Positions 787 through 10,361 of a stretch of 32,530 nucleotides of DNA are shown in pieces. The position numbers were made by a program, and so were the translations under genes. Every line of letters starts with the position of its first letter. Positions within the stretch are counted from its first letter, which is position 1. Source of the DNA: Promethearchaeota archaeon (GTDB lineage: Archaea > Asgardarchaeota > Lokiarchaeia > Sigyniarchaeales > SOKP01); NCBI GenBank assembly GCA_019894715.1, contig JAGXOA010000202.1, positions 1-32,530 on the forward strand. The letters run 5' to 3'. Under the pieces are notes generated by a model. That model was not told where the DNA came from. It saw nothing but the letters and a program-made list of their open reading frames with translations, and ran no database searches.

Positions 787-1323
787 ATGGTTGAACCAAA
801 TTATATCGTAAAGCTATGTCTTCTTGGAGAGGCGGCTGTAGGCAAGACTTCTTTAGTATATAGATTTGTCCAAAATTCTTTCAGAGAATCTTATAAAAGC
901 ACTCTTGGCGTTAACTTACTTAAGAAAGATATGATTGTTGATAAATATGGAGGAGTTTCAGCACAAATCTGGGATTTAGGTGGTCAAGAAAGTTTTAAAT
1001 CACTACGTAAACTTTATTTAGAAGGTGCAAATGGTGCTTTAGTAATCTATGATACAACAAATGCAAAATCATTTAAAAAATTGGATGAATGGGTGGGGAG
1101 TTTTAAAGATACTAGAGGTGTAAAACCACTATTTCTAATAGGAAATAAAGCAGATTTAAAAGAAAAGATGAAAGTTTCGGAAGAAGAGGGGAGACAATAT
1201 GCCGAAGATAATAAAATGAGTTTTATGGTTACTTCTGCTAAAACCGGTAACAATGTTGAAATGGCATTTAAAACACTTATAGAATCAATACTAGATGAAA
1301 TTTCAAAAGATGATTTGTCCTAA
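787..1323 (+). CDS. Ras/Rab-like small GTPase
   Basis: The 178-residue product is a single GTPase domain. G1 (P-loop) is GEAAVGKT at 14-21, the switch I threonine is Thr40, G3 is WDLGGQE at 63-69 with the catalytic Gln present, G4 is NKAD at 121-124 and G5 is TSAKTG at 150-155. All residues for GTP binding and hydrolysis are therefore in place. Family knowledge: Asgard archaea encode many such proteins, thought to act as molecular switches in membrane or cytoskeleton processes. There is no C-terminal cysteine motif for prenylation, so any membrane attachment must be indirect. It stands alone between TnpB-element remnants. The start is the ATG 14 codons before the P-loop. The specific partner or pathway cannot be told from sequence. 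Confidence 0.93.
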   Translation: MVEPNYIVKLCLLGEAAVGKTSLVYRFVQNSFRESYKSTLGVNLLKKDMIVDKYGGVSAQIWDLGGQESFKSLRKLYLEGANGALVIYDTTNAKSFKKLDEWVGSFKDTRGVKPLFLIGNKADLKEKMKVSEEEGRQYAEDNKMSFMVTSAKTGNNVEMAFKTLIESILDEISKDDLS

Positions 1324-2119: not shown

Positions 2120-2599
2120 CTAATCTTTTTGAAAAACAATCATGAACTCACAAAAATTTTCTCCTGTCTGTAAACCACAACTTAATTCTTGAGCAAAACA
2201 ATGTACATCACTTATTCCTTCCACGATCCCTGCTAATAAGCCTGCTTCAAAAGAACAGAAATTTGCTTTAGTTTTTATTTCTTTACCAATTAAAGTTTGT
2301 AGTGATGAATGGTTCTTTAATTTTAATTGGACTATTTCATCTGTTTTGTTAGTTATTTCAACATCACCTATATTAAATTCTTTTATGATTTCTTTTATCT
2401 CTTCATGAATCTTTTCTGGTGATATTGTTTCTTTAGTTTTTATGAGAGTGCCTAGTTCATGACCCAAATAATAGAAAATGGCTTCTAGCTGCTGCCCTAA
2501 AGCAAAAAGAGCCCCATATTTAAGATCTCCTATTGATTTTCCATCCTTTAGATATATTTTCATTTGAGTTAATATTTTTGATAATAAGGAACGATCCAT
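2120..2599 (-). CDS. V4R-domain protein (TRAPP/Bet3-like fold)
   Basis: The 159-residue product has an N-terminal helical part with SIGDLKYGALFALGQQLEAI (22-41), in the position where V4R/Bet3 proteins carry the conserved helix. Its C-terminal part has the V4R signature: FCSFEAGLLAGI at 114-125, then a CFAQELSCGLQTGENFCEF stretch at 134-152. The cysteines at 115, 134, 141 and 150 fit the Cys pattern of V4R domains. Family knowledge: V4R domains bind small hydrophobic ligands or act in regulators, and they are the prokaryotic relatives of TRAPP Bet3 subunits, which help form the Rab GEF in eukaryotes. An AAAGGAG ribosome binding site sits 8 bases before the ATG. It is the third gene of a likely operon with a small GTPase, 57 bases after the thioredoxin-like gene. 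A role as partner of that GTPase is inference. Confidence 0.75.
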   Translation of the reverse strand: MDRSLLSKILTQMKIYLKDGKSIGDLKYGALFALGQQLEAIFYYLGHELGTLIKTKETISPEKIHEEIKEIIKEFNIGDVEITNKTDEIVQLKLKNHSSLQTLIGKEIKTKANFCSFEAGLLAGIVEGISDVHCFAQELSCGLQTGENFCEFMIVFQKD

Positions 2600-2656
2600 A
2601 AATTCTTCTCCTTTATTTCTAATCTCTTTTTATTTTCTAATTCATTTAATTTTTAA

Positions 2657-2959
2657 TTAAATTTTTACAGAGGCGATAAAAGCATATAAAATACTATCAA
2701 TAATATCCTCTTCTTCAATATTTAACATTAATTTTCTGTCTCCTATAATTAATGTTGGTACTGATGTAATATTATATTCATTTATGAGCTCTCGGTTTTC
2801 TTGCATATTTATATTTATTTTATCTATTTGTAATCTTTTACCAAACATAGATATGTTTATTCTTTTTAATTTTTCTTCTACAGGCTTACAAGGCATACAA
2901 TGCTGCGATGAAAAAAACAAAATTTTTGGGTAATCTTGTTTGAAATTCTCATTAATCAT
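2657..2959 (-). CDS. Thioredoxin-like protein with CMPC active site
   Basis: The product of about 100 residues has a thioredoxin fold pattern: a beta strand ILFFSS leading to the redox motif CMPC followed by KPVEEKL, a middle strand around QIDKINI, and the cis-proline loop TSVPTLII. It should act as a small cytosolic thiol-disulfide oxidoreductase or glutaredoxin-like protein. I chose the ATG at 2959, 13 bases after the stop of the upstream GTPase. A longer form starting with TTG at 2992 would overlap that gene by 20 bases and has no better ribosome binding site. The tight spacing says it is cotranscribed with the GTPase and the V4R gene. Its physiological electron donor is not visible here. 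Confidence 0.82.
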   Translation of the reverse strand: MINENFKQDYPKILFFSSQHCMPCKPVEEKLKRINISMFGKRLQIDKININMQENRELINEYNITSVPTLIIGDRKLMLNIEEEDIIDSILYAFIASVKI

Positions 2960-2972
2960 ACAAAATACAAGT

Positions 2973-3512
2973 TTATTTATCTTTATATTCAAAATATAAT
3001 TCTTTTATAATTTCTTGAAATCCTTCATATACTCCGGCACCCGTTTTTGCTGATGTATTAAAATATTTAAGGAAACCTTTATCTTCAACTAATTTATTGA
3101 CTTTTTTGTTATCCAAGTCTTTTTCATTTATTAAATCTTTTTTATTTCCAAATAGTACAATTGGGATATCTCCACAATATTTTTCAATATCTTCATACCA
3201 TTTTGGTATATTTTTAAAACTATCCTCATTTGTATGTGAAAATACAATAATTGCGGCTTTGCTTCCTTTATAAAATGTAGGTCGCATAAAATTCCATTCA
3301 TCTTGACCAGCTATATCCCAGAAGAAAAGCTTACAATTTTCATCATCTATTTCCTCATCATATTTTGAAAATTGAGCACCCATAGTCTTTATATAATCTT
3401 TTTGGAATGAGCCTTTCGTATATTTTTTAATAAGAGATGTTTTTCCTACTGCTCCATCACCAATTACTGTTATTTTAAAGATAAATCCTCTCTTTTCTTC
3501 ATTATCTTTCAT
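2973..3512 (-). CDS. Ras/Rab-like small GTPase, first gene of the V4R operon
   Basis: The 179-residue product has G1 GDGAVGKT at 18-25, switch I Thr43, G3 WDIAGQDE at 65-72 with the catalytic Gln70, G4 NKKD at 123-126 and G5 TSAKTG at 153-158. It is a complete, apparently active Rab/Ras-type GTPase with no lipidation cysteines. The ATG is preceded by a GAGTGATTGA element that matches the GTGAT core of an archaeal Shine-Dalgarno site. Downstream genes encode a thioredoxin-like protein (13 bases after the stop) and a V4R/Bet3-like protein, all on one strand. The operon suggests a shared process, possibly membrane-associated and redox-linked, but the sequence does not name the effector. The two other GTPases in the window are clearly distinct sequences. 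Confidence 0.93.
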   Translation of the reverse strand: MKDNEEKRGFIFKITVIGDGAVGKTSLIKKYTKGSFQKDYIKTMGAQFSKYDEEIDDENCKLFFWDIAGQDEWNFMRPTFYKGSKAAIIVFSHTNEDSFKNIPKWYEDIEKYCGDIPIVLFGNKKDLINEKDLDNKKVNKLVEDKGFLKYFNTSAKTGAGVYEGFQEIIKELYFEYKDK

Positions 3513-5416: not shown

Positions 5417-5875
5417 ATGGTAATAAGAGAAGCAGGGTTGCTTTTTAGAGGAAAAAATTTAGTTAATATTCAATACCATGCAACAAGTGAAGAGATAGAT
5501 GAAGATATTAGGAGTGCTTTGATTACTGCAATAATTGATTTTGTAGAAATTGCCTTCGATTCAAATAATATGAAATATTTAGGTGGAGATAAATATATAA
5601 TTGCGTTTATAGAAAATAAAATTACTTCTATTGATATGACTGTTCCTGAATCTTTTTATGCATATCTCATTATAGATAAAGAGAAAAAAATGGAAAAATA
5701 TTTTAAAAAAGTAATTCGACCTCTTTTAATAAAAGTTACGAATAGATTTAAATCTGCATACGATGGAAAATACCTCTCTGAAATAACTCAATTTTTAGAG
5801 TTTAAAAAGGAATTGGATAAAATTTTGGGTTCTGCTACTCAAACAGTTGATCAAAAATTGCATAGTACTTTCTAA
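5417..5875 (+). CDS. Longin/roadblock-like small protein
   Basis: The 152-residue product has the layout of the archaeal longin-like family: an opening strand GLLFRGKNLV, an acidic loop EEIDEDIRSALITAI leading into a helix, then strands KYLGGDKYIIAFIENK and SFYAYLIIDK, and two long C-terminal helices. Longin and roadblock domains are small alpha-beta folds that serve as platforms or regulators for small GTPases, and they are abundant in Asgard genomes. That makes a link to the GTPases nearby plausible, but no partner is encoded next to it. The assignment rests on fold pattern and not on strict motifs. The GTGATC element before the ATG fixes the start. It is convergent with the deoxyhypusine synthase gene. 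Confidence 0.6.
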   Translation: MVIREAGLLFRGKNLVNIQYHATSEEIDEDIRSALITAIIDFVEIAFDSNNMKYLGGDKYIIAFIENKITSIDMTVPESFYAYLIIDKEKKMEKYFKKVIRPLLIKVTNRFKSAYDGKYLSEITQFLEFKKELDKILGSATQTVDQKLHSTF

Positions 5876-9824: not shown

Positions 9825-10361
9825 ATATCAATTTATGATGCAACTTTCAAACTAGTAATCTTTGGAGATGCTGGAACAGGAAAGACAACACTTACACATA
9901 GATTTTTAACTAATTTATTTAAATCAGATAGCACCATGACTATTGGTGTTGATTTTAACGTTAAAAGTCTGGAAGTTAATGGAAAAAAAGTAAAATTACA
10001 AATATGGGATTTTGGGGGAGAAGAAAGATTCCGATTTTTATTACCAACCTATGTAAGAGGTGCTTCTGGAGCTCTTTTTATGTATGATATCACTAACTTT
10101 TCATCTTTAGCACACATTGATGATTGGCTTATGGTAGTAAAAAAAGAAATTAAACCTGAACATGTTTTACCTATCTTAATGGTTGGTGGAAAAGCAGACT
10201 TAATGGATCAAAGAGAAGTTCCTTCTGATGAAGGAATCAATATTGCAAAATCTCGAGATTTAAGTGGATATATAGAATGTAGTTCAAAAACAGGAAAAAA
10301 TGTAGAAAAAGCATTCGAAGGGATTACTCAACTGATGATGAGAAATTCTCGTATTGTTTAA
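9825..10361 (+). CDS. Small GTPase with apparent AUA start and altered G3/G4 motifs
   Basis: Read from ATA at 9825 the product is 178 residues, the same length as the first GTPase, and the P-loop GDAGTGKT falls at 14-21 in both. Starting at the first ATG (9936) would remove the P-loop and leave a useless protein. G3 is WDFGGEE (61-67), with Glu66 where the catalytic Gln normally is. G4 is GGKAD (121-125), with Gly122 replacing the Asn of NKxD. G5 is CSSKTG (152-157). The switch I threonine is about residue 39. Nucleotide binding looks possible, but hydrolysis and guanine selectivity may differ. There is no lipidation motif. It is convergent with an acyl-CoA ligase fragment. A sequencing error at the start codon is the main alternative. 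Confidence 0.88.
   Translation: MSIYDATFKLVIFGDAGTGKTTLTHRFLTNLFKSDSTMTIGVDFNVKSLEVNGKKVKLQIWDFGGEERFRFLLPTYVRGASGALFMYDITNFSSLAHIDDWLMVVKKEIKPEHVLPILMVGGKADLMDQREVPSDEGINIAKSRDLSGYIECSSKTGKNVEKAFEGITQLMMRNSRIV

Follow-up and report, generated by a model that had tools for sequence, protein, structure and literature searches.

We report that a three-gene cluster encoding a Ras/Rab-like small GTPase, a thioredoxin-fold protein (Trx) and a V4R/Bet3-fold protein is kept in one order and on one strand at 64 of the 70 loci of its V4R subfamily found in 227 Asgard genomes, and we are highly confident that it constitutes a functional unit. Within the lokiarchaeal class, small GTPases of three distinct lineages pair repeatedly with V4R proteins. 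Since V4R pairs with two further GTPase lineages, and since Trx-V4R-V4R fusion proteins exist, the V4R protein of the triad is probably a hub, with thioredoxin on one side and the GTPase on the other.

The window, a stretch of 32,530 nucleotides, is one entire contig of a 3.36-Mb genome assembled in 288 contigs. The initial annotation had described a complete Ras/Rab-type GTPase, a CxxC thioredoxin and a V4R protein sharing the Bet3 fold at positions 2120-3512; these coordinates, strands and identities are borne out by the open reading frames, the Pfam matches, and the model and PDB fold matches of the V4R protein. The three genes are complete and follow each other head to tail, with 13 nt between the GTPase stop and the Trx ATG, and 57 nt between the Trx stop and the V4R start. 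Start sites are purine-rich, that of the V4R gene being preceded by an AAGGAG-type site. A TTG start for Trx would overlap the GTPase gene, and the alignment favours the ATG.

Table 1. Positions of the triad genes and of two further genes of interest in the window
Feature	Position	Strand	Remarks
Ras/Rab-like small GTPase	2973..3512	-	179 aa; heads the cluster
Thioredoxin-fold protein (Trx)	2657..2959	-	probably starts at ATG 2959, otherwise at TTG 2992
V4R/Bet3-fold protein	2120..2599	-	159 aa
RAB2, second Ras-like GTPase, another clade	787..1323	+	Pfam Ras 165.5 bits; convergent to the triad
Possible longin-fold protein	5417..5872	+	upstream of the triad, opposite strand

The GTPase scores 160.4 bits with the Pfam Ras model (cut-off 21.6), and its best PDB matches are Rab23 and Rab5. 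The G motifs, including the catalytic Gln, are present, with the P-loop GDGAVGKTS at 3435-3461, and residues K24, T43, D66, G69, Q70, N123, K124, D126, S154 and A155 are found in 53/53 homologues (window included; the RAB2 genes of loci L128 and L131 were left out of this set). The GTPase, Trx and V4R homologue sets were all limited to proteins measuring 0.8-1.4 times their query, and alignments A1-A3 comprised 24, 22 and 22 chosen sequences. No cysteine occurs among the last six residues of any of the 53 GTPases; as the protein thus lacks the C-terminal prenylation cysteines of eukaryotic Rabs, we call it Rab-like rather than a Rab. This genome carries 55 loci of Ras-like GTPases, and 29 of the 54 other than the triad locus were included in a GTPase tree, in which triad GTPases and their paralogues form one clade (support 100/99). 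The triad GTPases alone are not a clade: paralogues without Trx or V4R neighbours (eight rows, seven loci) are interspersed among them, and the triad label requires four changes on the tree, indicating that the partnership with Trx and V4R is not obligatory. The Trx protein matches the Pfam Thioredoxin model at 31.1 bits (cut-off 23.5), with the active site C-M-P-C (codons 2897-2899 and 2888-2890) and an SVPT loop. Both the CxPC motif and the loop proline, P79 when numbered from the TTG, are present in 51/51 homologues.

By sequence models, the V4R protein falls below threshold, scoring 20.4 bits with Pfam V4R (PF02830; cut-off 31) and 26.3 with DUF2507 (cut-off 35), and its sole credible sequence match in the PDB is MJ1460 (2OSD/2OSO; E 1.5e-4). 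Its AlphaFold2 model (pLDDT 87.6) matches PoxR (Z 14.3, 3.2 Å over 130), MJ1460 (Z 14.0, 2.5 Å over 105), a chain of the Bet3-Trs33-Bet5-Trs23 complex (Z 13.3, 3.1 Å over 123) and Thor-TRAPPC3 (Z 12.1, 2.8 Å over 126), Z scores within 1 of each other being read as tied. The phenol-sensing V4R domains of PoxR, MopR and DmpR thus rank near the top by fold score (Z 14.3-13.1), almost level with MJ1460 and the Bet3-complex chains; these domains are fused to a transcription activator, whereas the triad protein stands alone beside a GTPase. YslB/DUF2507 is a further fold match (Z 11.1). The Asgard protein Thor-TRAPPC3 (PDB 7YH3 and 7YH2, Z 12.1 and 11.5; PMC10933270) shares with the triad protein the Bet3/V4R fold and a cysteine zinc site, putative in the latter, at 17 and 16% identity; unlike the triad V4R gene, it is not described as lying in an operon with a GTPase or Trx gene in the available text of that study. 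Bet3/V4R proteins are marked by two glycine pairs with three-residue spacing in helices 2 and 5 (Podar 2008, PMC2253512), and the triad family has both pairs, with G46/G50 conserved in 55 and 53, and G120/G124 in 55 and 51, of 55 sequences. Taken together, the modelled structure and these motifs, rather than the PF02830 model, place the protein as a divergent subfamily of the V4R/Bet3 superfamily.

The four cysteines of the V4R protein, C115 (codon 2255-2257), C134 (2198-2200), C141 (2177-2179) and C150 (2150-2152), stand at the residues first given for them. They are strongly conserved, as is E138: among 55 sequences, C115, E138 and C141 are found in 55, and C134 and C150 in 54, C134 being replaced by A in one f2 sequence. 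This richness in cysteines, beside a CxxC thioredoxin, had been taken as a sign of redox control, an argument that proves weak. C115, C141 and C150 have a spacing (26 and 9) that resembles that of the zinc cysteines of DmpR (26 and 8), where three Cys and one Glu coordinate the zinc (PMC7264223; likewise PMC10715001), and Thor-TRAPPC3 binds zinc with four Cys and contains internal cavities (PMC10933270). All but one of the four cysteines thus agree with the usual zinc site, and we rejected an argument for redox control from the cysteine count alone. By analogy, the fourth zinc ligand may be E138 or C134; E138 precedes C141 by three residues, whereas the Glu published for the DmpR type precedes its cysteine by five. 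C134 is the sole cysteine that could be extra to the usual site, and it could perhaps be a zinc ligand too.

To define how widely the cluster is kept, we searched the 227 Asgard genomes with a V4R subfamily threshold of E<1e-20. The subfamily was found in 68 genomes, all of one order, with 60/65 genomes in the family of the window (f1), 1/1 in f2, 7/8 in f3 and 0/5 in f4, that is 68/74 in the three lokiarchaeal families f1-f3. Another 19 genomes have hits at the weak level of E 1e-6 to 1e-3, located in other frames. A motif-seeded search of the subfamily likewise returned relatives named Lokiarchaeota, Lokiarchaeia, Prometheoarchaeum sp. and Harpocratesius repetitus at 69/69 distinct loci, the record of the window itself possibly not being among them; the Prometheoarchaeum sp. 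MAGs have the V4R gene, and their contigs (L113, L125) carry the cluster with wider spacing. The 68 genomes provide 70 loci, two of them having two each. Besides the 64 loci with the order GTPase-Trx-V4R, one (f2) has GTPase-V4R-Trx and four are cut by contig ends (G152, G136, G090, G088); in G136, Trx and GTPase genes lie at the start of another contig. At the remaining locus (G105), an 894-aa LAGLIDADG protein (40.8 bits, cut-off 22.5; L128 111-2795) precedes a broken V4R frame, and the GTPase and Trx genes lie near the end of another contig, an incomplete triad likely explained by insertion of the LAGLIDADG gene between Trx and V4R. The gene order is therefore not unique to this contig, and it is kept in three families, confined to one order among the 227 genomes.

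In f1, the wider neighbourhood is syntenic too (CinA-like protein, deoxyhypusine synthase, arginase family, Arg-tRNA synthetase), and the triad order there is thus partly inherited. By contrast, in seven f2/f3 stretches queried with 20 window genes, the triad is kept and all other non-GTPase neighbours of the window are gone; GTPase paralogues also remain in two of the seven. Order and strand conserved at 64/70 loci, including families without the other neighbours, exceed what chance would leave. Trx-V4R gaps (n = 56) measure 12-105 nt in 44 cases, 160-501 in 11, and are negative in one, the permuted f2 locus, some of the longer ones being artefacts of automatic Trx start picking (e.g. L075, L098). 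The triad genes of f3 lie roughly 0.1-0.5 kb apart, so that co-transcription is only putative there. None of the six V4R-less genomes of f1 and f3 has a Trx match at E<=1e-7, on a scan that scored just 22 candidates in many genomes, including five of the six; conversely, G152 has the V4R gene and no orthologous Trx, its contig being cut at that point. More distant GTPases of the triad clade are present in five of the six, and G092 has one that may be the orthologue, without its partners. As the genes are adjacent and these six genomes are 71-90% complete, missing contigs explain the joint absence as well as joint loss does.

Pairing of V4R with a GTPase recurs beyond the triad. The other V4R gene of this genome (G000:C179) lies directly downstream of a gene for a 343-aa protein, the C-terminal half of which is an Arf-like GTPase (PF00025 93.6 bits, versus 51.8 for Ras; Arf in 21/21 members). 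We call this GTPase distinct because Pfam Arf outscores Ras, the GTPase tree having been built without it. It carries an extra N-terminal domain, which matched no longin model of Pfam in the 21 members. The second V4R gene directly follows the Arf-like GTPase gene on the same strand at 29/29 testable loci, of 30 sampled from 64 genomes with a match; the 30th ends at a contig edge. A third pair was found in G080, G081, G082 and G083, outside the order of the window and within its class, where V4R lies directly beside a GTPase of another clade (100/96); in G081, the 209-aa frame beside the GTPase scores 45.6 bits with V4R. In the tree, neither the triad clade nor the G080-G083 clade includes any of the 29 other GTPase loci sampled from this genome. 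Assuming 1 kb per gene and random placement, a rough figure for finding by chance a GTPase no more than two genes away from each of the two V4R genes of this genome is 0.004. Around 60 V4R loci, which were chosen from the best matches listed, frames of about 500 codons first, and are not a random sample, all six GTPases (E<1e-8; two of them at L281) lie within two genes of V4R, that is 6/218 genes within two of V4R versus 0/459 further away. A GTPase is the direct neighbour in three of these 60 loci, all in the class of the window; outside this class, none of the sampled V4R genes has a GTPase directly adjacent, and L266 has one two genes away. On these sampled loci, we rejected the idea that V4R-GTPase adjacency is general across Asgard.

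The other side of the putative hub appears in Asgard lineages where Trx and V4R are joined in single proteins. Trx-V4R-V4R proteins were found at 14 loci in families f12, f13, f14, f15, f16, f17, f19 and f26, their genes spanning about 460-540 codons, except one truncated after 421 aa and one trimmed of its CxxC part. CxxC is present in 13 of the 14, and 13 carry two copies of the E..C...CxF motif, against a single copy in the truncated protein. One such protein, run against Pfam, gave Thioredoxin_3 at 32.7 bits (cut-off 24.8) and V4R at 101.4 bits over two stretches. The thioredoxin-V4R link thus exists independently of the triad. In a Trx tree, operon and fusion thioredoxins were not grouped with support (71/25, long branches), and the fusion may be a separate invention from the operon. 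At 13 of the 14 loci, no GTPase was found within four genes on either side. Several neighbours and relatives were seen in passing: an AhpC/TSA-like peroxiredoxin directly follows the fusion gene in L270 (Pfam 130.9 bits) and L271 (recognized by eye), both of f17, and a Roadblock/LC7 protein (54.6 bits), a GTPase-regulator fold, is encoded directly upstream of it in L268 (G051, f15). In four f17 proteins of about 660-690 aa (L364, L365, L366, L380), a Trx-like domain is flanked by sensor-like regions and by an end that resembles a histidine kinase; scoring covered the Trx part, the other domain names being read by eye in three of the proteins.

We give about an even chance to a mechanism in which the triad is a three-gene signalling unit and V4R a ligand- or redox-sensing adaptor for a soluble Rab-like GTPase. 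The V4R protein would dimerize in the manner of Bet3 and PoxR, its hydrophobic pocket being tied by zinc, and would read a small hydrophobic ligand or the redox state. Trx would dock on V4R, as its counterpart does by fusion in other Asgard lineages, and would set or protect V4R thiols, C134 being the candidate unless it is a zinc ligand. V4R would in turn bind the soluble, non-prenylated GTPase and control its location or cycling. For the direct contact between V4R and the GTPase taken by itself, the balance tips in favour.

The best placed of the other explanations, in our view unlikely, is that the V4R pocket binds a lipid and tethers the non-prenylated GTPase to a membrane, with Trx as a folding or repair helper. 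It is consistent with the lack of C-terminal cysteines in all 53 GTPases, with a V4R fold supported by structure matches, and with the palmitate found in the same cavity of mouse TRAPPC3 (PMC10933270); however, every Asgard GFP fusion that the same paper examined in HeLa cells was diffuse, and Trx is given no specific role. It is rather improbable that transcription is shared without contact, Trx and V4R acting as a redox/ligand pair and the GTPase only sharing their promoter. The dearth of GTPases around the fusion genes and the stand-alone GTPase paralogues would fit such an arrangement, but three distinct GTPase lineages pair with V4R, and in the vicinity of two of these no Trx was seen.

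The adaptor mechanism is also preferred to a TRAPP-like exchange factor, in which a V4R dimer would open the nucleotide pocket of the GTPase under redox control by Trx, a proposal that we consider improbable and the least likely of the explanations. The fold of V4R is that of Bet3, its pairing with GTPases recurs, and a possible longin gene lies about 1.9 kb upstream of the triad. This longin-like gene is near the triad in 36/52 f1 stretches and in 0/7 f2/f3 stretches, and thus is not part of the conserved unit, although a longin partner encoded elsewhere is possible. Its product has no Pfam match, and its AF2 model (mean pLDDT 72.4, residues 14-32 under 50) no Foldseek match at E<=0.001; of the ten VIA rows that score best, eight belong to longin or longin-SNARE structures (Z 9.6-8.0), the best with an rmsd of 5.0 over 111, so that the longin identity is no more than suggestive. 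The family is multicopy, with nine matches in this genome and a match in 76/79 genomes of the order, and may be a stand-alone longin-fold protein. The V4R protein itself ends 5-12 residues past F152 in 24/24 sequences, and 7 past it in 22/24. The end of its model aligns to residue 183 of the 188-residue 3CUE chain E, which we take to be Bet3, and the protein seems to lack the C-terminal extension of Bet3. In TRAPP, the catalytic site is built mainly by the longins TRAPPC1/C4, and switch I clashes sterically with the C-terminus of Bet3 (PMC10152722). Statements on the minimal complex differ, C1-C3-C4 being inactive without C5 in that review and sufficient in PMC8204870, longin subunits being needed in both; the Asgard TRAPPC3 paper, for its part, argues for ligand binding (PMC10933270). 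The triad thus resembles the eukaryotic TRAPP core with Rab1 (Bet3, Bet5, Trs23, Trs31) in placing a Bet3 fold beside a Rab-like GTPase, and differs from it in that the unit has no longin, the C-terminal extension of Bet3 seems to be missing, and the GTPase has no prenylation cysteines. Of the initial suggestion that the cluster represents an ancestral TRAPP-like GTPase-regulator pair, the conserved pairing stands, and the exchange-factor part is weak.

A tentative evolutionary scenario, possible though less probable than not in our estimate, is that Bet3-fold proteins partnered or regulated archaeal small GTPases before TRAPP, that the lokiarchaeal V4R hub links ligand and, via Trx, thiol state to Rab-like GTPases, and that eukaryotic TRAPP later added longins. 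Among the matches listed in titles and abstracts of the open-licence PMC literature, we found no published report of the cluster or of Trx-V4R-V4R proteins. Ras-like GTPases number in the dozens in Asgard genomes, 74 being reported in MK-D1. A 2024 structural study (PMC10933270) states that MK-D1 GTPase genes do not generally share operons with genes for roadblock, longin or TRAPPC3 proteins, and considers it difficult to assign regulators to Asgard GTPases from the way genomes are laid out. Three specific V4R-GTPase pairs, one with Trx, are now defined, of a size that suits direct biochemistry. Should V4R bind the neighbouring GTPase, whether the Bet3-GTPase partnership predates TRAPP becomes testable experimentally; the cluster offers concrete protein pairs with which to test the origin of the vesicle-traffic machinery. 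A redox-linked ligand sensor in further Asgard lineages is suggested by the Trx-V4R-V4R fusions.

RAB2 is a possible further member of the unit. In 52 f1 stretches, RAB2 lies downstream of V4R on its strand, starting <1.25 kb from the V4R start, in 31; it is on the opposite strand in 17, further off in one and absent from three. RAB2 and the triad may together represent an older four-gene unit. A third Ras-like GTPase is encoded in the same window at 9840-10361 (+).
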